From a bacterium (GTDB lineage Bacteria; Lernaellota; Lernaellaia; JACKCT01): DNA of 34,515 bases. Numbering within the stretch: position 1 is the stretch's first letter; each line of letters starts with the position of its first letter. The stretch lies in NCBI GenBank assembly GCA_019912885.1, contig JAIOHV010000225.1, positions 1 to 34,515 on the forward strand. The letters are read 5' to 3'. Shown here in pieces: positions 4,244 to 27,069 of this stretch. Position numbers and translations under genes: made by a program. The notes under the pieces were generated by a model. That model saw only the letters and a program-made list of their open reading frames with translations. It ran no database searches and was not told the DNA's origin.

Positions 4244-4501
4244 ATGAGCACGGCCGAGGAAATTCTGGAGCAGATCAAGCAACTGCCGCCCGACGAGCGT
4301 CGCAAAATCGAAGAGGCGCTGACGCGCGGACTCGCGGAAGAGGGCAAAAAAGAAGTGCCACCTTCTCGCCCCGGCCGATATAAGTCACTTTTGGATCTCG
4401 CGGGCAAATTTCATTCGGACCATACGGACATTTCGACGAACAAATACGAGCACGTCGCTGCTGCTGCCCTTGACGGCCATGGCGACACTGACAACACGTG
4501 A
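4244..4501 (+). CDS. VapB-like antitoxin
   Basis: An 85-residue acidic, mostly helical protein directly before a PIN-domain gene. The N-terminal half (EEILEQIKQLPPDERRK) is a pattern frequent in antitoxins of PIN toxins; the second half (GRYKSLLDLAGKFHSDHTDIS) is the toxin-wrapping tail often seen in such antitoxins. AGAGG at 4233-4237 supports the ATG. Its TGA overlaps the GTG start of the toxin by 4 bp (GTGA), the usual coupling in such pairs. The antitoxin would bind and silence the PIN nuclease and repress the operon. Family membership is inferred from context and pattern. Confidence 0.75.
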   Translation: MSTAEEILEQIKQLPPDERRKIEEALTRGLAEEGKKEVPPSRPGRYKSLLDLAGKFHSDHTDISTNKYEHVAAAALDGHGDTDNT

Positions 4502-4908
4502 AGCGCGTATTCGTTGATTCTGGCGGGTTTGTGGCTCTATTTTTAACGAACGACGCCGAGCATGCCAGGGCGCGCGAGCTTTTCGCGATGGCGGATTCGA
4601 GCAGTTGGCGGCTCTTAACGACGAACGCGGTTGTTTTCGAAACATATGCCGTCTTGCTGCGCCGATCGCGCGAAGCGCGTCGAACCGCGATCGCATTTCT
4701 GGAAGTCGCCGAAAGGCGAGTCTTCGAAATCGAACGCATCCTCCCCGAAGACGAAGCCCGCGCCGTCTCCATCCTTCGCTGACACGCCGACAAAGCATAC
4801 TCCTTCTGCGACGCGCTGAGTTTCGCGGTGATGGAGCGGCTCGGCATCGGCGACGCGATCGCGTTTGACCGGCACTTCGCCGCTTACGGCAAGTTCAATA
4901 TCCTTTAA
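4498..4908 (+). pseudogene. VapC-like PIN-domain toxin with in-frame stop
   Basis: The frame begins with GTG at 4498 and encodes a PIN-domain RNase of 136 residues if codon 95 is read through. The first part has the N-terminal acidic residue in VFVDSGGF (D7) and the second in VVFETY (E48). Codon 95 is TGA (4780-4782). After it, in the same frame, come SFCDALSFAVMERLG (D105) and AFDRHFAAYG (D124), the remaining catalytic acids of the family, ending with TAA at 4906-4908. In relatives this point usually holds a basic or aromatic residue, so CGA to TGA is the simplest origin. The 94-residue truncated product would lack half the active site. Its end overlaps the stop of the convergent glycosyltransferase gene. 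Confidence 0.82.
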
Positions 4909-6740
4909 CGCTCGATCTGCAATTCGCTGACGGCGCGGCCGGCGTGCTTTTGCATCGGCGTCTTGATGACCAGGCGGCAGCCCGCGTCGCCGCAATCGTT
5001 CAGTCCCCATCTTGCGCGAAGCGGCGGCCGGCCGGGGATGCCGGCGGTCCTGAAAAGCACGGTGCCGTCATTTTTTGCAAGGAACACGGTGCTGCGCGGC
5101 TCGGCGTCGCCGTCAATCAGAAAGCTCACGCTCGACGCCTGGGCGGGCAGCGGCGCGGAATGCAACTCGTCGCCCGCCCGCTCAAAGCCTTCGGGCGTCG
5201 GTGCGGACAGATCGACCGTCGCGATCGTCTCGAACGGCAACATCGCGTAACGGGGATAGATGATCGTGCCCGTCATCGGGCGCGGCGCCAGCACCAGCTC
5301 GCCCTCCGTGCGATAGCGCCCCATGATCTCGCTTGAAAAAACGTCGAACGGCGGTCGCACATCGACCAGTACGCGAGAAAAATGCCTCTCATCGATCGCC
5401 CGGCGCAACGCGGCCGGCGGCGCCTGCCCCGCCTTTTGCGTCTCCGCGATGAACATCCCCTTGGGATGCAGCGGTTTGCCCGCGAGCCACGCGTAATACG
5501 GGTGATCGAGCACCAGCGTCTCGCCTTTTTCCGCCGCAAGCGACGCGATGAACTTGTTTCCCTCGTCGATCGTCTTCGCGTCGGGGATCTGGGCGAACGG
5601 ATTGAATACGCATAACGCGAACTGCACCGGAAGCAACAGGCGCGCGATGTCGTGATCCGCGCGCGCGACGAGGATCGCGAGCGCGAGGAAGATCGGAATG
5701 AAATCGTTGAGGTAGTTGCCGGCCTTGGCCCAGGGCAGCATCGCGCACGGGATCGACGCCGCGAGAAAGAGTACCCAGATCGGCGCGCCGCGCGATGATT
5801 CGCGACTTTCGCCGTTCGACGGTTTTTGTCGCGCGCGAAAAAACGCGATAAGCGCCACCGCAAGCACAAGCGGCCCGCACGCACGCAGGACGGGCCACGG
5901 ATTCAGGAGGCGCGCTGGATAGAGCTGATGCGACGCGCCGACCTTCATGACGTAAAACGAAAATTGCCCATCGCTGGCGACCTCGTATGCGGCCGCGATC
6001 GCAAGCCCGACAGCCGCAAGGACGCCGGCAAAAACGAGACCGCGCTTGCGGTCGTTCCAGATAAGCGCGACGACGGCCGCGCCCGCGTAGAAGACCGCAA
6101 CCTGCTTCGTGTACACCGCGGCGGCGAGCATCGCGCCCGCGCCGGCAAGATGCGCGATGCGCGGCTCGCGTCGATCGATCAACACGAATGCCGCGAGAGA
6201 CAGCAGGAGAAACACCGCGTCCAGCCGCGCGAGGTCGTACCAGTAACCGGTCAAGGGATAAAACGCGAGAAACGCCAGCGCCGCGGCCGCCGCGTGCGTT
6301 TTGCGCGCGCCGGCCCGCCGTCCGACAAGATAGACGAGCGCGACGAGCCCGAGCGCGGCGGCAAACGAAACCGCGCGGCATACGGCGATCGACTTGCCGA
6401 AGATCGCGATGAACGCCGCGCAAATGTAGTAGTACCCCGGCGGGTACAGCAGCGGAACGAATGTCGGGTCTTCGTCCGGGTGCGGGTAGATCTCCTTGCC
6501 GTCGAGCACGCGCAGCGCCGTGAGAAAGATATCGCCTTCCTCGAACTCGAGCTCGAATTTGTGGCCGATTCGCGAGGCTGCGACGGCGAGAACCAGAAAC
6601 GCGAGGAGAAGCGCGAACGCGAGGTTGATTGCGGAAAGCCGGCGCGACCATCGCCCGGGAATCAGGCCGGCGCCACTTGCCGCCGGCGGTGTCGCGCCGT
6701 CATCCGTCGCGGTTTCGGCCGACGGATGCGCGCGCGTCAT
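4905..6740 (-). CDS. GT-C family glycosyltransferase (GT39/ArnT-like)
   Basis: A 611-residue polytopic membrane protein. After a Pro/Ala-rich N-terminus and a first membrane segment (about 36-56) comes the loop KFELEFEEGD with the acidic residues (E67, E68, D70) that in GT-C enzymes sit at the catalytic site, then LLYPPGYYY, typical of PMT/ArnT-type dolichyl- or undecaprenyl-phosphate-sugar transferases. About ten hydrophobic segments follow, then a soluble periplasmic domain of about 170 residues. It probably transfers a sugar from a polyprenyl carrier to lipid or protein on the periplasmic side; acceptor unknown. The ATG at 6740 overlaps the TGA of the TRAP permease (ATGA), which decides the start over the ATG at 6773. 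It is the last gene of the operon. Confidence 0.85.
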   Translation of the reverse strand: MTRAHPSAETATDDGATPPAASGAGLIPGRWSRRLSAINLAFALLLAFLVLAVAASRIGHKFELEFEEGDIFLTALRVLDGKEIYPHPDEDPTFVPLLYPPGYYYICAAFIAIFGKSIAVCRAVSFAAALGLVALVYLVGRRAGARKTHAAAAALAFLAFYPLTGYWYDLARLDAVFLLLSLAAFVLIDRREPRIAHLAGAGAMLAAAVYTKQVAVFYAGAAVVALIWNDRKRGLVFAGVLAAVGLAIAAAYEVASDGQFSFYVMKVGASHQLYPARLLNPWPVLRACGPLVLAVALIAFFRARQKPSNGESRESSRGAPIWVLFLAASIPCAMLPWAKAGNYLNDFIPIFLALAILVARADHDIARLLLPVQFALCVFNPFAQIPDAKTIDEGNKFIASLAAEKGETLVLDHPYYAWLAGKPLHPKGMFIAETQKAGQAPPAALRRAIDERHFSRVLVDVRPPFDVFSSEIMGRYRTEGELVLAPRPMTGTIIYPRYAMLPFETIATVDLSAPTPEGFERAGDELHSAPLPAQASSVSFLIDGDAEPRSTVFLAKNDGTVLFRTAGIPGRPPLRARWGLNDCGDAGCRLVIKTPMQKHAGRAVSELQIER

Positions 6741-7987
6741 CGATTCACCAGAAACAGCGACAAATCCGGCCAATACGTGATGATGAGGACCGTCAGCAGC
6801 AGGATAACGAGAAAAGGAATCGTCGCGCGATAGAGCTGGAGGATCGGCCGGTCAAAGCGGTAGCTCGCGATAAACAGATTCATGCCCACGGGCGGCGTGC
6901 AATAGCCGATCTGCATGTTCGCGAGGAAGATGATGCCCAGGTGAATGCGGTCGATGCCGAACTCGTCGGCCATCGGCAAGAGCAGCGGCAGCACGATGAC
7001 GATCGCGGAGAAGATGTCGAGCATGCAGCCGAGCACCAGCAGGAAGAGGTTGAGCAACATGAGGAACGTCAGCGGGCTCGTCACGTGCGATTTCGTGAAC
7101 TCGACGAGTCTCATCGGAACCTGCGCGTCGATGAGGTAGTTCGTCGACGCGTAAGACACCGCGAGAATAATGAGGATGCCGCCGACAAGCACCATGGAAT
7201 CGCGCATCACGATCGGCAGGCGCGAAAACGGCATTTCGCGATAGACGAACACCTCGACGAGGAGAACGTACATCGCCGTCACGGCCGCGGCCTCGCTGAC
7301 CGCGAAAATGCCGCCGTAAATTCCGCCGAGCACCACGAACGGCAGCGGGATCTCCCACGCGGCGGCACGCAGCGCGGTGCCGAGCCGTTTTGCGTCAAAC
7401 CGCACGAGCGGAATTTTCGATTGCACGCCGTGATATACGCTGTACGAACCGAGCAGCACGATCATGAGGATGCCCGGCAACAGGCCCGCCTCGAACATGC
7501 GGTCGACGTCCACCTCGGCGATGATGCCGTAGAGAATCAGCGGGATCGCCGGCGCGAACAAAAGCCCAAGGCTCCCCGACGTGGTGATGAGGCCAAGGTT
7601 GAAATTTTCGCGGTAGCCCTCCTGCTGCATCGCGGGAAACAGCAGGCCGCCGAGCGCCACGATCGTCACGCCCGACGCGCCGGTGAACGCCGTGAAAAGC
7701 GCGCACGCAATGAGCGCGACGATCGGCAGGCCGCCGGGCATCCAGCCGAGCAACGCGCGCGAAACCTCGAGCAGGCGGCCCGGCGCCTTCGTTTCGCCGA
7801 GAAGGTAGCCCGCGAAGGTGAACAGCGGAATCGCAATCAGCACCGGCGTGCCCGTGATGCGGTGGATCTCGATCGCGACGACGGACAGGTCGATATCCGC
7901 GGACGCGAATCCCGAAAGCGCGCTCGCGGCGATCACCGCAAAAAGCGGCGCGCCCGCGACGGCGACGATGGCGAGCAGGATGGGCAT
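6737..7987 (-). CDS. TRAP transporter large permease (DctM/TatM)
   Basis: A 416-residue polytopic protein of the DctM family, the large membrane subunit of TRAP transporters, which drives uptake with a sodium or proton gradient. The features are hydrophobic throughout, with FTGASGVTIVALGGLLFP and the conserved NLGLITTSGSLGLLFAPAIP region matching the ion- and substrate-binding hairpins of the family, and a late PPVGMNLF motif that is highly conserved. Length is normal (about 425). Its ATG overlaps the TGA of the small permease by one base (TGATG), so the two are translated together and should form the membrane complex. Confidence 0.95.
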   Translation of the reverse strand: MPILLAIVAVAGAPLFAVIAASALSGFASADIDLSVVAIEIHRITGTPVLIAIPLFTFAGYLLGETKAPGRLLEVSRALLGWMPGGLPIVALIACALFTAFTGASGVTIVALGGLLFPAMQQEGYRENFNLGLITTSGSLGLLFAPAIPLILYGIIAEVDVDRMFEAGLLPGILMIVLLGSYSVYHGVQSKIPLVRFDAKRLGTALRAAAWEIPLPFVVLGGIYGGIFAVSEAAAVTAMYVLLVEVFVYREMPFSRLPIVMRDSMVLVGGILIILAVSYASTNYLIDAQVPMRLVEFTKSHVTSPLTFLMLLNLFLLVLGCMLDIFSAIVIVLPLLLPMADEFGIDRIHLGIIFLANMQIGYCTPPVGMNLFIASYRFDRPILQLYRATIPFLVILLLTVLIITYWPDLSLFLVNR

Positions 7988-8532
7988 CAGGCGCCCGCCT
8001 CGCCGGGGCGGTCGGGTTCGGCGACATCCGGCGGCGCGCCGCGCACGGCCTCCACGACGTGGATCACCGCGAAGCGCGCGTACCGGATCGCGATGACGCC
8101 GAACGCGAAGGGGATGACGATTTCCGTGATCCAGACCGGGATGTCCGCGAAGGTCGTGTTGCCGACCTCCATCTCGTCACGCACGAAACGCACGCCCGCG
8201 TACGCGACGAGCGCCGACACGACGCAGGTGAAAATATCGGTCCCGATACGCACAACGGCGGCACGGCGCGGCGCGAAAAACTTGGAGACGAGATCGATCG
8301 CGATGTGCCGATCCTGGCGTGTGGCGACGACCGCGCCAAGCAGGCCGACCCACAGCACGAGCGTCCGCAGCAGCGGATCGATCCAGGAGAGCCCCGTGTC
8401 GAAACCGTTACGCAGCACGATCTGCAAGACGGCCAGCACGATCATCGCCGTCAAAAGCAGAGCGAGAAAATAGTCTTCCGCCCGGTGAACGATCGAAAGC
8501 GGGCGCGGCGCGGGACGCTCCGGGCTCATCAC
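7987..8532 (-). CDS. TRAP transporter small permease (DctQ/TatQ)
   Basis: A 181-residue protein with four predicted membrane helices, the pattern of DctQ, the small permease subunit that packs against DctM. NGFDTGLSWIDPLLRTLVLWVG fits the family's conserved W-x-[DE]-E/P-x-R-x-x-x-x-W core, with the RQDRHIAIDLV stretch typical of its second loop. The start is GTG 8532 or the next codon ATG 8529; both overlap the TGA of the solute-binding protein gene (GTGATG). The C-terminal tail is rich in Pro and Asp. Confidence 0.93.
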   Translation of the reverse strand: MMSPERPAPRPLSIVHRAEDYFLALLLTAMIVLAVLQIVLRNGFDTGLSWIDPLLRTLVLWVGLLGAVVATRQDRHIAIDLVSKFFAPRRAAVVRIGTDIFTCVVSALVAYAGVRFVRDEMEVGNTTFADIPVWITEIVIPFAFGVIAIRYARFAVIHVVEAVRGAPPDVAEPDRPGEAGA

Positions 8533-9527
8533 TTCGCGCGGTATTCCGCCACGAGCTTGTCGATTTTCGCCTCGAGATCCTTTGAGAACATTCCCTGCTC
8601 GGCGAGCTTGCGCGTGGCGGCGTCGCCCACCTCCTCGATGCGCTTCACGAACTCAGGATTCGGCGCGACAACCTCGATCCCCTGCTTTTTCAGCGTCGCC
8701 ATCGCCTCGGCGTTCGATTGACGCACGCCCTTGTTGATCTCGTCCATGTGCTTCTTGAGGATGCCGCGAACCGTCTCGCGATCCTGCGCCGGAATCTTCT
8801 CCCAGCCGCGCTTGGAAAAGACGAGCGTGCCGTACGTGTAAAGCAGGGGGTAGTCGGTCAGATACTTCGCCTTGGTGAACCATTGAAGCGTCACGGTGCC
8901 GATCGGCGAGTTGGCGAACGTGTCGACAAGCCCCGTCCGCAGACCGGTGAGCACATCGGGCAGCGGCAGCGGCACGCCGGACAGGCCAAGCTCCGCGTAC
9001 ACCGTCTTGGCGACGGGATCGCCCTCCGGCTGCCACACCTTGCGTCCCTTGAGGTCGTCCACGGAATTGATCTTCTGCTGCGACATCATATAGACGAAGC
9101 CGATTTCCATCATCGCGACCGGCACGAACCCCTTATCCTCGATGCCCTTCATGATGATCGGCTCGATCGTGGGCCGGACGTAATCCACCTCGTCGTACGA
9201 GCGGAACTGGAACGGCAGGCTCATGATGCCGAAGTCGCGGTTGACCTCCGAAATGCCGCCCGCGGTGAACGTCGCGCCGTGGAGTTGGCCGACCTTCATC
9301 TTGCGCAGCACGACGGTGTCCGAGCCCTGCACGCCGCCGGGGTAGAGCGTCAGGTCGACCCGCCCGCCCGTGGCCGACTTGATCTCGTCGTTCGCCGCGT
9401 GGAACGCCTTGGCAAGCGCGGTGCCCTCGGGCGAAAGCGTCGCCACCTTCATCGAAATGCTCGCGGCCAGAAGCGGCGTCGCAACAAGAATCGTCAATCC
9501 CAAAAAAACAACGGCCAGGCGTTTCAT
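8529..9527 (-). CDS. TRAP solute-binding protein (DctP/TatP)
   Basis: A 332-residue periplasmic binding protein of the DctP family. It has a Sec signal peptide (MKRLAVVFLG... to about residue 21, LLAAS). The family signature follows: SPEGTALAKAFHAANDEI at the N-terminus, then LKGRKVW and the segment LRTGLVDTFANSPIG, which corresponds to the strand and helix where the conserved ligand-gripping residues sit. It captures the substrate and delivers it to the DctQM pair. The ATG at 9527 overlaps the TGA of tatT (ATGA). In the treponemal TPAT system the matching P protein binds a TPR protein; ligands there are thought to be hydrophobic. Substrate here is unknown. Confidence 0.94.
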   Translation of the reverse strand: MKRLAVVFLGLTILVATPLLAASISMKVATLSPEGTALAKAFHAANDEIKSATGGRVDLTLYPGGVQGSDTVVLRKMKVGQLHGATFTAGGISEVNRDFGIMSLPFQFRSYDEVDYVRPTIEPIIMKGIEDKGFVPVAMMEIGFVYMMSQQKINSVDDLKGRKVWQPEGDPVAKTVYAELGLSGVPLPLPDVLTGLRTGLVDTFANSPIGTVTLQWFTKAKYLTDYPLLYTYGTLVFSKRGWEKIPAQDRETVRGILKKHMDEINKGVRQSNAEAMATLKKQGIEVVAPNPEFVKRIEEVGDAATRKLAEQGMFSKDLEAKIDKLVAEYRAK

Positions 9528-10444
9528 TCGCTTTCCCCCTGCAATAAAGAAACATCCTCTTCCGGTTCGGCTTCCTCGTCGATCGCCACGGGCATGTCGT
9601 CCTCGAGGCGCGCCAGCATCCGCGTCGCCTGCGCGCGCGCCAGCGTGTTGATGAGCGTCAACCGCGGTTCGACGTCCGCCGGCGTCGCGAGCGCGCTGTT
9701 CAACAGGCGCACATAAAGCTCGCGATCGCCAAGCGGCAACGCGACCTGCCGCGCGTAATACACGTACGCCGGAACGAATTTGCCGCGCCCGGCCGCAAGC
9801 GCCTTCTCAAATTCCGCGCGGCCGGCCTCGAAATCGCCGCCGAGCGCCGGCGGAACGATGGTATGCAGAACACCCATATAAAGATGCGGGCTTCCGTACT
9901 CGTAATCGCCGTCGATCGCCACCATCCGCTCGGCGAGCAGGCGGATCTTCGCGAGGTCCGCGATCGCGTCCCAGTCGCCGGAGTGCGTCTGGATATAACC
10001 GGCCCACGCGCCAATGACGACCGACAGCGCGCCGATGTCGTCCCGATCCTCGAACTCCCCCGCACACGGCTCGAATGCCGAAAACGGTCCGTCGTGATGC
10101 GCGGCGAAGCAGTCGTAATCCTCCGACGCGCCGCGCACGGCGTAGTCGAACGCACGTTCGGCCAGCACGCGGGCGCGTTCGGGGTTTTCGTCAATGACGA
10201 ACGCGGAATTGTAGGCGGTGTAAAGACGCGCGGCGGCGTAGAGCGCGTCCTCGTTTTCGGGATCGCCCTTGATGACGCCGTCGAGCATGAGCAGGTAGGC
10301 GGGCAGACCGCCGGCGACCATCGCGGGGTCGTCGTGCTCGAGCACCGCCCCCTGGAGATTGTCAGCCCATCGCGTGACGAGCGAACCGCAGCCCGAAAGC
10401 GCGAACGCAAGCGTGGCGACCATGAGGAATCGGATCCATCGCAT
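9524..10444 (-). CDS. tatT: TatT-like TPR lipoprotein of a TRAP transporter (TPAT)
   Basis: A 306-residue lipoprotein with the lipobox LSGC (Cys19). The rest is helical and Ala-rich with TPR-like pairs: ALYAAARLYTAYNSAF, ARVLAERAFDYAVRG, GAWAGYIQTHSG and FEAGRAEFEKALAAG. This matches the TatT component family first described as Tp0956 of Treponema pallidum, which forms a trimer with a pore and binds the P subunit of its TRAP transporter. The assignment rests on the pattern and on its place as first gene of the TRAP operon. It would sit in the periplasm, anchored to a membrane, and may hand hydrophobic ligands to TatP. The last 30 residues are acidic. The start at 10444 follows AAGGA at a rather long distance. 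Confidence 0.85.
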   Translation of the reverse strand: MRWIRFLMVATLAFALSGCGSLVTRWADNLQGAVLEHDDPAMVAGGLPAYLLMLDGVIKGDPENEDALYAAARLYTAYNSAFVIDENPERARVLAERAFDYAVRGASEDYDCFAAHHDGPFSAFEPCAGEFEDRDDIGALSVVIGAWAGYIQTHSGDWDAIADLAKIRLLAERMVAIDGDYEYGSPHLYMGVLHTIVPPALGGDFEAGRAEFEKALAAGRGKFVPAYVYYARQVALPLGDRELYVRLLNSALATPADVEPRLTLINTLARAQATRMLARLEDDMPVAIDEEAEPEEDVSLLQGESE

Positions 10445-10672: not shown

Positions 10673-11584
10673 CTAGCGGAGCGATGCGGCCGCGCCGTAC
10701 GGATACGGCCACGCCGCGGCGGGCGGCTCGGCAAGTTCGACAATCTCCCAGGAGGAGCGCTCGTTCATGAGCTTGCGCGCCAGGCGGTTGTTAAGGCCGT
10801 GGCCGGATTTTTTTGCCTCGAGCTTGCCGAGGATCGGCATGCCCGCAAGGAAAAGATCGCCGACGGCGTCGAGAATCTTGTGGCGCACGAACTCGTCCGC
10901 GTAACGCAGGCCGCCGTCGTTCAGGACGTGGCCGGGGCCGAGCACGATCGCGTTGTCGAGACTCCCGCCGGCCGCGAAGCCGTTGGCCTTGAGCGTCTGG
11001 ATCTCGGACAGGAAGCCGAACGTGCGCGCGGAGGCGATCTCGCGGACGTACGTCTCCGGGGTCAATTCGAGTTCCATCCGCTGCTTTTTTATTACCGGGT
11101 GATCGAACTCGATCTCAAAATCGATCGCGAAGCCGTCGTGAGGCTTGAGTACCGCGGATTTGCCTTCCTCGTACAGCGCGACCGGGCGCGTGATCCTGAG
11201 GTAGCGGCGCGGCGCGGGTTGCTCGACGAGGCCCGCGGACTGGATGAGCTGCACAATCGCGCGGCTCGAGCCGTCCAGAATCGGGATTTCCTCGCCCGAC
11301 ACCTCGGCGATCACGTTGTCGATCCCCAGGCCGACGAGCGCGGACATGAGGTGCTCGACGGTGGAGACTATGAAATCGCGCCCGGAGATCGTCGTGGCGA
11401 AGCTCGTGCCGGTCACGGACTCCGGCCCGGCGACGACGGACGGCCGGCCGGCGAGATCGGTGCGCACGAAGCGGACGCCGTGATTGGCGGGCGCGGGCTT
11501 GAGCGCCAGTTTGATCAGACGGCCCGTATGAAGGCCGACATTCTCGACGCTGACCGTTTTTCCGATGGTGTGCTGATAACTCAT
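10673..11584 (-). CDS. lpxC: UDP-3-O-acyl-N-acetylglucosamine deacetylase
   Basis: A 303-residue zinc amidase catalysing the committed step of lipid A synthesis, removal of the N-acetyl group from UDP-3-O-acyl-GlcNAc in the cytoplasm. The zinc ligands are visible: H78 in STVEHLMSAL, and H235 and D239 in HKILDAVGDL; H262 in SGHGLNN is the catalytic histidine. The N-terminus QHTIGKTVSVENVGLHTG is the canonical LpxC start. The frame is open back to 11725, but the ATG at 11584 gives the family's start. It is monocistronic, with a good terminator behind it. Its presence shows that the host is a diderm that makes LPS. Confidence 0.96.
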   Translation of the reverse strand: MSYQHTIGKTVSVENVGLHTGRLIKLALKPAPANHGVRFVRTDLAGRPSVVAGPESVTGTSFATTISGRDFIVSTVEHLMSALVGLGIDNVIAEVSGEEIPILDGSSRAIVQLIQSAGLVEQPAPRRYLRITRPVALYEEGKSAVLKPHDGFAIDFEIEFDHPVIKKQRMELELTPETYVREIASARTFGFLSEIQTLKANGFAAGGSLDNAIVLGPGHVLNDGGLRYADEFVRHKILDAVGDLFLAGMPILGKLEAKKSGHGLNNRLARKLMNERSSWEIVELAEPPAAAWPYPYGAAASLR

Positions 11585-12052
11585 TTTTCCGACAGACCCC
11601 ACGCTTATAAAATGGACACCCGAAACCGGCCGCGCCAAAACGCGCGGCAACGGCCCCGGAAAAGAGCAAGCGTCGTGCCGAAAACGGCCCCAGTCCGCTG
11701 CGGATAAGTCACAGGATTTATTCACGTGTTTTCAAATACTTAAGTGCTTATCCCTAATTATTCGCTTAAATAATCCCCAAGGCGATTTCGACACAGTGTT
11801 GCGTCGCCGCAACAGCGTTGTGTCATCGGCGCTACGGCCCGGATTTGCCGCCAGAAAAAGTAGAAATAACAGAGGCTCGATTCCCGAGCTGGCAGTAGGA
11901 GCGCCCTTCCAGGGCGCGATCTTGACTTCCCGCGCAATCAGGGTTTTTGCCTCATGCGGAGACGCGGAGAGCGCGGAGGGCACGGAAGCACGGCGGGATT
12001 TTTAGGAGAGCCTTTCCAGCGTGCGGGGGATCGGGTTCGTTCAACAGGCCTA
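11585..12052. other. Intergenic region upstream of lpxC with repeats
   Basis: This 468-bp gap has no convincing gene; the frame at 11732-11983 on the minus strand lacks a ribosome site and crosses the repeats. On the minus strand TATAAG near 11605 could be the lpxC -10. A short hairpin lies at 11901-11917, and 11953-11990 holds degenerate GCGGAGA/CACGGAAG units of the family seen at 23337-23498. The stretch 11710-11800 is AT-rich compared with its surroundings. Confidence 0.65.
11901..11917. repeat. REP-like hairpin GCGCCCT-TCC-AGGGCGC
   Basis: A perfect 7-bp stem with a 3-base loop, preceded by AGTAGGA. Such 'GGAGCGCCCTTCCAGGGCGC' palindromes occur as dispersed REP-like elements in many environmental bacteria. 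There is one copy here and no adjacent T run, so a terminator role is unlikely. Confidence 0.6.
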
Positions 12053-23571: not shown

Positions 23572-24240
23572 ATGCAGTCCGACATCCGTCACGGGCCGTC
23601 GTTCGCGACTCTTTTCGTGTCGCTATCCGACGGCGAATCCGTCCGCACCGAAGCGGGCGCCATGCTGGGCATGTCGCCGAACCTGGAGATCAAGACCAAG
23701 GCGCAGGGCGGCTTTTTCAAATCGCTTTTGCGCAGCATCTTCGGCGGCGAAAGCATCTTTCAGAACACCTACACCGCTAAAGGCGGCGCGGGCGAATTGT
23801 ACGTCTCCCCCACGCTGCCGGGACATATCGTGCACCGGAAAATCGAAAAGGGCGCGCCGTTCACGATTCAGGCGTCCGCGTTCCTCGCGTGCACGCCGGA
23901 CGTGACGCTTTCAACGAAATACGGCGGCATGAAATCGCTGCTCTCCGGCGAGGGATTGTTCCTGCTCGCCGCCGAGGGCGAAGGCGATCTCTGGATCAAC
24001 AGCTACGGCAACATCGTCGAGGTCGACGTGGACGGCGGGTACGTCGTCGATACCGGACACATCGTCGCGTTCGAGGAAGGCCTCGCGTTCAAGGTCAAAA
24101 AAGTCGGCGGGTTGAAAAGCACGCTGCTTTCCGGCGAGGGCTTCGTCGCCGAATTCACGGGCAAGGGAAAGCTCTTCATCCAGAGCCGCACCGTGTCCTC
24201 GCTCATCGGCTGGATCACGCCGATGCTGCCGGCGCGCTAG
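23572..24240 (+). CDS. AIM24 family protein, paralogue 1
   Basis: A 222-residue protein of the AIM24/TIGR00266 family, a beta-rich fold formed from repeated strand motifs. Typical features: EAGAMLGMSPNLEI, a GG-rich basic loop, then NTYTAKGGAGELYVSPTLPG, GEGDLWINSYGNIVEV and the C-terminal VGGLKSTLLSGEGFVAEFTGKG. It has no signal peptide and is presumably cytoplasmic or membrane-associated. Function in bacteria is unknown; yeast Aim24 is needed for mitochondrial inner membrane organisation. It is the first of three adjacent paralogues, and the gap to the second is 9 bp. It differs most from the others at its N-terminus. Confidence 0.92.
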   Translation: MQSDIRHGPSFATLFVSLSDGESVRTEAGAMLGMSPNLEIKTKAQGGFFKSLLRSIFGGESIFQNTYTAKGGAGELYVSPTLPGHIVHRKIEKGAPFTIQASAFLACTPDVTLSTKYGGMKSLLSGEGLFLLAAEGEGDLWINSYGNIVEVDVDGGYVVDTGHIVAFEEGLAFKVKKVGGLKSTLLSGEGFVAEFTGKGKLFIQSRTVSSLIGWITPMLPAR

Positions 24241-24249
24241 GGGGAACCG

Positions 24250-24933
24250 ATGCGTATCGATATCCAGCACCGTCCGTCGTACGCGGTCGCCGACGTGCAC
24301 CTGTCGCCGAACGAGTCGATCGTCAGCGAGGGCGGCGCGATGGTCGCCATGAGCGCGGGCGTGAACGTTTCGACGAGCACCATGAGCCGCGGCGGCGCGG
24401 GCGGATTGCTGAAGGCCGCCAAGCGCCTGCTCGCGGGCGAAAACTTTTTCCTGAACACATTCACTGCAAACGCCCAGGGGCACGTGTCGCTCGCCCCGAC
24501 GCTCGTCGGAGACATCGAGCACATCGCGCTTGACGGCACGAAGGCGCTCATCGTGCAAAGCTCAAGCTGGCTCGCGTCCTCGCCGGGCCTTGAGATGGAC
24601 ACGAAGTTCGGCGGGCTGAAAGGGCTGTTCTCCGGCGAGGCGCTTTTCTGGATGCGCGTTTCCGGCACGGGCGATCTTCTCATCAACAGCTTCGGCGGCC
24701 TGTTCCACAAGGACATCGACGGCGCGTTCATCTGCGACACCGGGCACATCGCGGCGTACGAGGACACGCTCGAATACAAGGTCAAAAAGGTCGGCGGGCT
24801 GAAGAGCACGCTGCTGTCCGGCGAAGGGCTCGTGTGCGAGTTTTCCGGCAAGGGGCGTCTTTACATGCAGACGCACAACGCGAGCGCGTTCGGTCAGTTT
24901 TTCGGCCACAAACTTCCGCCGAGAAAGCAGTAG
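24250..24933 (+). CDS. AIM24 family protein, paralogue 2
   Basis: A 227-residue AIM24 protein, 9 bp after paralogue 1, with GGGGGAA as ribosome site. It shares SEGGAMVAMSAGVNV, the basic loop LLKAAKRLLAGENFF, GDLLINSFGGLF and VGGLKSTLLSGEGLVCEFSGKG with the other two. The C-terminal tail HKLPPRKQ is encoded by a 38-bp stretch (24901-24938) that occurs again, diverged, at 24973-25010 after the stop codon. Confidence 0.92.
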   Translation: MRIDIQHRPSYAVADVHLSPNESIVSEGGAMVAMSAGVNVSTSTMSRGGAGGLLKAAKRLLAGENFFLNTFTANAQGHVSLAPTLVGDIEHIALDGTKALIVQSSSWLASSPGLEMDTKFGGLKGLFSGEALFWMRVSGTGDLLINSFGGLFHKDIDGAFICDTGHIAAYEDTLEYKVKKVGGLKSTLLSGEGLVCEFSGKGRLYMQTHNASAFGQFFGHKLPPRKQ

Positions 24934-25010
24934 GAAAAATTGAGGATTGAGGATCGAGGATTGAGGATCGAGTTCGGGCAAGAACTTCCGCCAAGAATGT
25001 CGTAGGAGAA
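24901..25010. repeat. 38-bp imperfect direct repeat around TGAGGAT units
   Basis: 24901-24938 and 24973-25010 are equal in length, align without gaps and match at about 30 of 38 positions (both contain AACTTCCGCC and GTAGGA). Between them lie four (T/C)GAGGAT units at 24941-24968. The first copy is the end of paralogue 2; the second supplies the ribosome site TAGGAG of paralogue 3. Confidence 0.85.
24941..24972. repeat. Tandem repeat, 7-bp (T/C)GAGGAT units
   Basis: Four 7-bp units, TGAGGAT, TGAGGAT, CGAGGAT, TGAGGAT, then CGAG. The same unit occurs inside priA at 28131-28157. Confidence 0.92.
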
Positions 25011-25014
25011 CGTC

Positions 25015-25692
25015 ATGGAATACAACATCACCGGACGGCCCGATTACGCGATGGCCGACATTTCGCTATCCGCGGGCGAGAAGATCGTCGCCGAATCCGG
25101 CGCGATGGTCGCGATGAGCCCGAACGTCAAGATCGAAACGAGCGCGAAAGGCGGCCTGCTCGGCGGGCTCAAGCGCATGGTCGCGGGCGAGAGCTTTTTC
25201 GTGAACACGTTTTCCGCGGAAGGCGCGCCGGGAACGATCAAGCTCGCGCCGAGCGCGCCGGGCGACGTGGAAGTGCTGCGTTTGCAGAACCAGACGTACT
25301 ACATGCAGTCCGGCGCGTACCTCGGGCACTTCGGCGAGATCACCGTCGATCCGAAGTTCGGCGGCGCGAGGAGCTTCTTTTCCGGCGAAGGTTTTTTCCT
25401 CATCAAGGTGAGCGGTACGGGCACGGTGTTTTTCAACAGCTACGGCGGGCTCAAGAAGGTGGCCGTCAACGGCTCGTATATCGTGGACACGACGCACATC
25501 GTCGCGTTCCCCGACACGATCACCTACAACGTGGAGACGGTCGGCGGCCTGAAGGCGACGTTCCTGTCCGGCGAAGGCCTCGTGTGCCGCTACTCCGGCA
25601 CCGGCGAGATCTTCGTCCAGACCCGCTCCGGCCCCGCGTTCGCGGGATGGATCAACCCGTTCCGGCGGGTGGAGCAGAAGAATAAGTCGTAG
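25015..25692 (+). CDS. AIM24 family protein, paralogue 3
   Basis: A 225-residue AIM24 protein with the same landmarks: AESGAMVAMSPNVKIE, a basic GGLLGGLKRMVAGESFF loop, FFNSYGGLKKVAV, and VGGLKATFLSGEGLVCRYSG. The ribosome site TAGGAG (about 25003-25008) lies in the second copy of a duplicated segment. It closes the three-gene cluster; the cluster probably forms one transcript with a common job, perhaps a mixed oligomer. Function unknown. Confidence 0.92.
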   Translation: MEYNITGRPDYAMADISLSAGEKIVAESGAMVAMSPNVKIETSAKGGLLGGLKRMVAGESFFVNTFSAEGAPGTIKLAPSAPGDVEVLRLQNQTYYMQSGAYLGHFGEITVDPKFGGARSFFSGEGFFLIKVSGTGTVFFNSYGGLKKVAVNGSYIVDTTHIVAFPDTITYNVETVGGLKATFLSGEGLVCRYSGTGEIFVQTRSGPAFAGWINPFRRVEQKNKS

Positions 25693-26028: not shown

Positions 26029-27069
26029 ATGCTTTCCCTTAGGCCCGAAAACCTGATCGACGGTTCGATTCCTGTCGGTACCGCCTGGCTTCTCGCGGCC
26101 TGTATGGAGGCGCGGGGCAAACAGGATCTCCGGGCGCGACAGATGCCCGAGGACCTCAAGGCGCTGCGTGAACAAGCGATCATTCAAAGCGCCGAGTCGT
26201 CCAATCGAATCGAAGGAGTGACCGTCGCGCCCGATCGCCTCCGGCCCATCGTTCTCGGACAATCACGTCCGCGCGACCGATCCGAAGAGGAGGTCGTCGG
26301 TTACCGGCGCGCCCTGAACTGGATTTTCAACCGCAAGCAACCCATTCGTGTGGAGCCGCGCACAATCCTTCATCTGCACAAGCTGGCGCAGGGCGGCCTC
26401 TCCGGCGACGCCGGGAAATGGAAGACGCGCGACAACGAGATCGTCGAAATCCTTTCAACCGGCGAGCGGAGCATCCGCTTCAAGCCAACACCCGCGAAGC
26501 AGACGCCAAAGGCCATTGATCGCCTCTGCGCGGCCCATCGTGACCTCGCCGACGCGGACCAGGCACCCGTGTTGCTGGTCGCGGCAACCTTCGTGTTCGA
26601 CTTCCTGTGCGTCCATCCGTTTCGCGACGGCAATGGGCGCGTGTCGCGACTCCTCACCACGTTGTTGCTGCAAAACGCGGGCTTCACCGTCGCTCGCTAT
26701 GTCAGCCTCGAGCGCATGGTCGAGGAGACCAAGGAGGACTACTACCGCATTCTGAAGGAATGTTCGGTCGGCTGGCACGCAGGCGCAAACGACCTGCTCC
26801 CGTGGTGGAACTACTTTTTGTCCACGTTGCGAAGCGCATACACCGAATTCGAACACAAGGTGGAGGCATCAACCGCCCACGGAGGGAAAAGCGACCTCGT
26901 GCGGCACGCCATCGAGAATCAGCCGGGTCCGTTTGCGCTCGCCGAGATTCGGGCGCAATGCCCATCGGTCAGCTTGCAACTGATCAAAAAAGTGCTGATG
27001 CAGATGAAGTCGAACGGCGAGGTTACGTTGACGGGCCGCGGGCGCAGCGCACGGTGGGTTGTCCTGTAA
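26029..27069 (+). CDS. Fic family protein (AMPylase-like) with winged-helix tail
   Basis: A 346-residue Fic protein. The core motif HPFRDGNGRVSR begins at His196 and is complete (HPFx[D/E]GNGRxxR), so the AMP- or nucleotidyl-transfer site should work. The N-terminal helix has SNRIEG (S58, E62, G63), fitting the inhibitory (S/T)xxxE(G/N) motif, the class where the inhibitor helix is in the same chain. The C-terminus (about 285-346) looks like a winged helix (ALAEIRAQCPSVSLQLIKKVLMQM), often seen in this subfamily and suggesting DNA binding. CGGAG at 26018-26022 supports the ATG at 26029. It is alone and converges with priA, 31 bp away. Target protein unknown. Confidence 0.94.
   Translation: MLSLRPENLIDGSIPVGTAWLLAACMEARGKQDLRARQMPEDLKALREQAIIQSAESSNRIEGVTVAPDRLRPIVLGQSRPRDRSEEEVVGYRRALNWIFNRKQPIRVEPRTILHLHKLAQGGLSGDAGKWKTRDNEIVEILSTGERSIRFKPTPAKQTPKAIDRLCAAHRDLADADQAPVLLVAATFVFDFLCVHPFRDGNGRVSRLLTTLLLQNAGFTVARYVSLERMVEETKEDYYRILKECSVGWHAGANDLLPWWNYFLSTLRSAYTEFEHKVEASTAHGGKSDLVRHAIENQPGPFALAEIRAQCPSVSLQLIKKVLMQMKSNGEVTLTGRGRSARWVVL

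Follow-up and report, generated by a model that had tools for sequence, protein, structure and literature searches.

Gene content and junctions of the locus

The window, i.e. the whole stretch of 34,515 nucleotides analysed here (contig JAIOHV010000225.1, from the genome designated G000), carries on its minus strand five genes in the order tatT-dctP-dctQ-dctM-glycosyltransferase (GT), in which neighbours overlap by 1 to 4 bp as read from the sequence. The first gene, tatT (9524..10444), encodes a periplasmic TPR-type lipoprotein, the T component of the system, matching the TAtT family PF16811. It is followed by dctP (8529..9527), coding for a TRAP solute-binding protein (PF03480, 133.3 bits; NF037995, 302.5 bits), by dctQ (7987..8532 with a GTG start, or up to 8529 with an ATG start), coding for the small TRAP permease subunit (PF04290, 83.8 bits), and by dctM (6737..7987), coding for the large one (PF06808, 269.2 bits; TIGR00786, 344 bits). 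The last gene (4905..6740) encodes a GT-C type glycosyltransferase of 611 aa, with matches to PMT_2 (PF13231) and GT87 (PF09594, 27.0 bits). For all five proteins, the Pfam matches exceed the curated cut-offs, and since orthologs of all five genes are present in other genomes, these are not chance ORFs.

The tatT/dctP and dctM/GT junctions are both ATGA, with a 4 bp overlap (9524-9527 and 6737-6740, respectively). The dctQ/dctM junction is TGATG, with a 1 bp overlap at 7987. At the dctP/dctQ junction, GTGATGA, the overlap is 4 bp if dctQ starts at the GTG (8532), and 1 bp if it starts at the ATG (8529). The overlapping five-gene operon proposed in the preliminary description, with its coordinates and gene order, is therefore borne out. 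Such overlaps are by themselves ordinary for a dense operon.

The upstream neighbour of tatT, on the same strand, is lpxC (10673..11725; PF03331, 341.5 bits). A terminator-like stem (10610-10588, minus strand; 9 base pairs including 7 G-C, then a series of Ts) separates the two genes, so that lpxC was rejected as an operon member, and the operon most likely begins at tatT.

Elsewhere in the window, a small ORF overlaps a PIN-domain ORF on the plus strand (4244-4782), in a toxin-antitoxin-like arrangement; the PIN match there extends no further than position 84 of the 120 in the profile, and the ORF is apparently truncated. Three tandem AIM24-family genes lie on the plus strand at 23572-25692, and are followed by a Fic-domain gene (26029-27069).

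TatT and its structural relatives

The first four genes had been described beforehand as a TatT-type TRAP operon, of the TPR-protein-associated kind (TPAT). The homology of TatT was confirmed by profile search (PF16811, 208.9 bits, above the cut-off). Its lipobox, LSGC at residues 16-19, can be read from the sequence after a hydrophobic stretch; a crude pattern recovered a lipobox in 52 of the 96 surveyed TatT ORFs with a length of 230 aa or more. Among PDB sequences, TatT matched BstC (8g52), the nearest by E-value (1.7e-7), and Tp0956 (3u64, 7.2e-6). A model of TatT, built from 3 sequences and with a mean pLDDT of 69.7, was submitted to a fold search, in which 3u64, 4di3_A and 8g52 were the sole matches at E ≤ 0.001. 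The match with 3u64 had an E-value of 4.9e-7 and TM scores of 0.61/0.67, and 4di3_A corresponds to TatT in its complex with TatP. The genome of the window has one more PF16811 match, a weak one (locus L002, G000:C6:20957-21190; 27.4 bits for a cut-off of 26.5), with no DctP found nearby.

The carboxylate clamp of DctP

According to Fischer et al. 2015 (PMC4646407), an Arg equivalent to SiaP Arg147 is present in 96.8% of DctP proteins, and in SiaP the high-affinity binding of carboxylates was shown to depend on it. The same source gives Phe as the commonest replacement of this Arg in DctPs, reports an Ala in Tp0957, and suggests that DctPs with a replaced Arg may bind hydrophobic substrates. 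In the DctP of the window, which has a plain signal peptide and no lipobox as read from its sequence, the residue aligned with the conserved Arg of solved DctPs is Trp165. Absence of a lipobox is the rule among surveyed DctP ORFs of at least 230 aa, the crude pattern being found in 3 of 82.

We examined the clamp position in 74 TatT-linked DctPs, that is, those encoded within four called genes of tatT. An aromatic residue was present in 68 of them (58 W, 9 F and 1 Y), the others having R (4), H (1) or a gap (1, in a fragment). Among control DctPs, whose unlinked status was judged from only about 1.5 kb of flanking sequence, Arg was found in 36 of 36 rows (32 distinct after removal of four duplicates); one control row of three had shown a gap at the clamp column, and exhibited Arg after realignment with more rows. 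Three more control loci had a TatT nearby, with R in two cases and W in one; two of them repeat survey loci. No paper mentioning Trp in TatT-linked DctPs was found in a search of the open-licence literature.

In a quick, midpoint-rooted tree of 106 DctP rows, all TatT-linked proteins fell into a single clade of 74 rows (support 99). Seven rows had been left out of this tree: 4 duplicate controls, the 2 controls repeating survey loci, and the fragment from locus L045. Within the TatT-linked clade, 70 rows formed a subclade (support 100) with 58 W, 9 F, 1 Y, 1 H and 1 R, and four Arg-bearing TatT-linked DctPs branched outside of this subclade. The loss of the clamp Arg thus apparently corresponds to one change within one clade, as judged from this tree. 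The simplest reading would be that TatT joined first, followed by a single loss of the Arg and, later still, by one reversion to it; as the tree is rooted by midpoint only, this order is tentative. The TatT-linked DctPs that kept Arg and lie outside the Trp/Phe group (L062, L130, L134 and L205) are possible intermediates in the origin of TPAT.

The TPAT assignment is therefore supported by the TatT profile, the Tp0956 and BstC sequence matches, the fold, the gene order and the loss of the clamp Arg. We conclude that tatT-dctPQM encodes a TPAT-type TRAP transporter, a further example of a known but little-understood class, in a poorly known phylum.

Distribution of TatT

TatT was previously reported in T. 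pallidum and 35 other species (2018 review, PMC5812351). In our sample of 386 genomes, which spans the domain and is not random, PF16811 was detected at E ≤ 1e-10 in 88 genomes, which represent 79 of the 329 genera; the 14 control genomes gave no match. A scan of named genomes with one TatT sequence gave 2 loci only. In the phylum of the window, 5 of 7 genomes had a TatT over the cut-off and a single DctP each (in two pieces in G002), so that the TPAT operon is the sole TRAP system of these 5 genomes; a single TRAP operon is also reported for Treponema pallidum (PMC5812351). The two remaining genomes, G003 and G006, had neither a TatT over the cut-off nor a DctP.

The genomic surroundings of tatT were analysed in 100 regions, 99 of which had a TatT-family ORF and 61 of which held TatT, DctP and DctM; we refer to the latter as complete TPAT loci. 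The TatT places without a long region were G187 C4, C13 and C22, G156 C20, G054, G042 C26, C31 and C37, the second G106 place and one G244 place. No shared neighbour that might explain TPAT function dominated these surroundings, the largest non-TRAP cluster being made of 12 loci, at scattered positions and on both strands.

Family matches of the glycosyltransferase

The fifth gene product had been described as an ArnT-like sugar transferase. With PMT_2, it scores 45.5 bits for a cut-off of 26.1, and it passes both the PMT_2 (GT39-like) and the GT87 Pfam cut-offs, as GT-C enzymes of these two families do; it differs from them in having no specific match to ArnT or to any named enzyme. In NCBIfam, there was no ArnT-specific match, and only a weak one to TIGR03663, far below the cut-off. 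In the PDB, no glycosyltransferase was matched either by sequence or by a two-sequence profile. ArnT identity was rejected on these grounds, and the protein is best described, from its family matches, as a generic PMT_2/GT87 GT-C protein. A single-sequence model had a mean pLDDT of 42.4 and was unusable for fold reading. An ortholog from G001, a genome of the same family, is 48% identical, and E68-G69-D70, D169 and D174 are invariant between the two, so that acidic residues of the first loop region are conserved. These acidic residues may be catalytic.

The glycosyltransferase is rarely found behind TPAT

Given the overlap with dctM, the preliminary description had proposed that the imported compound and envelope glycosylation are linked, and it is this GT link that made the finding look unusual. 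We quantified its recurrence downstream of the complete TPAT loci, 55 of which (out of 61) have at least 600 bp of downstream sequence. Genes of the fetched regions had been called with a home-made codon-based caller; as it missed TatT in several loci (L063, L067, L105 and others), the downstream GT count was performed on ORFs from all six frames. For PMT_2, the profile was derived from 30 sequences. A same-strand PMT_2-type gene was found within 3 kb downstream in 2 of the 61 loci: the window itself, and L045 of G002, a genome of the same family and of another genus.

In G002, tblastn showed that the order lpxC-tatT-dctP-dctQ-dctM-GT is kept, despite identities to the window of only about 49-78% for most protein pieces. 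The GT there starts 355 nt after dctM, with no overlap. Inspected by eye, this gap shows a short run of GCAGAG-type repeats, which may represent the insertion of a repeat element. In the same locus (G002:C1:450001-470000), tatT, dctP, dctM, GT and lpxC are split by frame breaks, which suggests sequencing errors rather than decay. In G001, the GT ortholog lies on contig C36 and TPAT inside contig C47, where a different PMT_2 gene is convergent with dctM. In G004 and G005, which belong to the class of the window, TPAT is present and no GT is found beside it.

PMT_2 genes are abundant in all these genomes, with 36 copies in G000, 33 in G001, 41 in G002, 66 in G003, 58 in G004, 60 in G005 and 76 in G006, the two highest counts being those of G003 and G006, both without TPAT. 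Such a range, from 33 to 76 genes per genome, is in itself an unusual expansion in a small phylum. Assuming about 4,500 genes in G000, we estimate that any one operon neighbour has a chance near 1 in 125 of being a PMT_2 gene there.

Besides the window, 17 loci had a gene within 100 nt behind TPAT, 15 of which were scanned (L100 and L116, a near-duplicate of L115, were left out). The genes close behind these operons were mixed, and included CinA, SAM synthetase, TGT, NAPRTase, SDR, GNAT, PorV and a cyclase, among others. The one suggestive exception is L107 (G233:C30, 6595-8106 and 12532-14244), where a divergent PMT_2 gene lies on the upstream side, and where the gene found 82 nt downstream of dctM encodes a TMTC-like TPR protein, weakly related to GT-C enzymes and not flagged by our PMT_2 profile. 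The G233 genome contains 35 PMT_2 genes.

Recurrence of the tatT-dctP-dctQ-dctM-GT arrangement was thus not found among these loci beyond the family of the window; among them, the GT sits beside TPAT in this lineage only, which is the outcome that the preliminary description had named as refuting its proposal. A general TPAT-GT pairing was rejected on the count of 2 out of 61 complete loci. As for a functional link, the restriction to one family, the split in G001, the lack of overlap in G002 and the PMT_2 richness of the genomes all speak against it, and it is not supported. Our search of the open-licence literature found no paper on a TPAT-GT pair.

Discussion

We consider it likely, with good confidence, that the locus combines a TPAT-type TRAP transporter with a lineage-specific passenger glycosyltransferase working on its own. 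In the periplasm, the TatT lipoprotein would accept a ligand of hydrophobic or lipid-like nature via its central channel and pass it on to DctP; from DctP, the ligand would reach DctQM, which would import it through the inner membrane in an ion-driven manner. One member of the very large PMT_2 family of the phylum may have settled downstream of dctM in a common ancestor of two genera. In this organism, it is probably co-transcribed with the transporter and would function independently, acting at the periplasmic face, where a sugar carried by polyprenyl-phosphate would be transferred to an acceptor of the envelope. That just one related genus keeps the GT in this position makes it very likely to be a local passenger. 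The arrangement is explicable without a shared pathway. Still, as G002 keeps the gene order despite protein identities of about 49-78%, the adjacency between dctM and GT is of some age, and may be under some selection.

Alternatively, GT and transporter might belong to one pathway and be co-expressed for this reason: the substrate of the GT would be either an envelope acceptor or the very lipid, or lipid-linked intermediate, that is transported by TPAT. The four-base dctM/GT overlap, the order kept in a second genus, TPAT features indicative of a hydrophobic ligand, the proximity of lpxC in both the window and G002, and the GT-C genes flanking TPAT in G233 are all consistent with this. We nevertheless judge it unlikely: the pairing is restricted to a single family among the complete loci, it is broken in G001 and loosened by 355 nt in G002, PMT_2 genes abound in genomes of the phylum devoid of TPAT, and the terminator-like stem cuts lpxC off. 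In an extended form of the idea, TPAT would be one DctP clade whose clamp Arg became aromatic after TatT joined, marking a bacterial lipid-uptake class, and in this lineage a GT-C enzyme would have been coupled to it, envelope glycosylation being fed by the transported lipid or by a lipid carrier that TPAT recycles; as a whole, this seems to us improbable.

A second alternative concerns the direction of transport. TPAT could be a periplasmic lipid shuttle, working outward or between membranes, rather than a nutrient importer, as TatT homologs include BstC, which comes from a study of sterol-binding proteins (PMC10942540). We give this little credit, since in TRAP systems the binding protein is reported to confer unidirectional transport (PMC4646407). 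Least probable is an ordinary organic-acid TRAP transporter with a TPR lipoprotein adjacent by chance, a reading in keeping with the standard Pfam families of DctP, DctQ and DctM and with the few basal TatT-linked DctPs that retain Arg, but at odds with Trp165 at a position occupied by Arg in 96.8% of the family (PMC4646407) and in all 36 control rows.

In DctP, KxW or KxF in place of KxR is a simple mark separating TatT-linked from carboxylate-binding proteins, and it makes ligand prediction and the choice of proteins for binding studies direct.

Compared with SiaPQM, the canonical DctP-type TRAP transporter, the system of the window is alike in the Pfam families of its P, Q and M subunits, whereas SiaPQM has no T component and possesses the Arg147 carboxylate clamp. 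With BstC (PDB 8g52), a member of the TatT family and its nearest PDB sequence by E-value, TatT of the window shares the fold. BstC differs in that it is grouped with BstA and BstB in a set of sterol-binding proteins (PMC10942540). Another parallel is the Treponema pallidum TPAT (TatT Tp0956, TatP Tp0957, TatQM), with which the window shares the TatT family and fold, and the adjacency to TRAP genes. Treponema TatT is described as a trimer with a hydrophobic pore that binds three TatP, for a putative hydrophobic ligand (reviewed in PMC5812351). In both systems, the binding protein is devoid of the conserved Arg, replaced by Ala in Tp0957 (PMC4646407) and by Trp in the window. The window differs in that its DctQ and DctM are encoded by separate genes, in that its binding protein has a signal peptide and no lipobox, a lipoprotein at this place being a Treponema feature, and in the GT gene that follows dctM.
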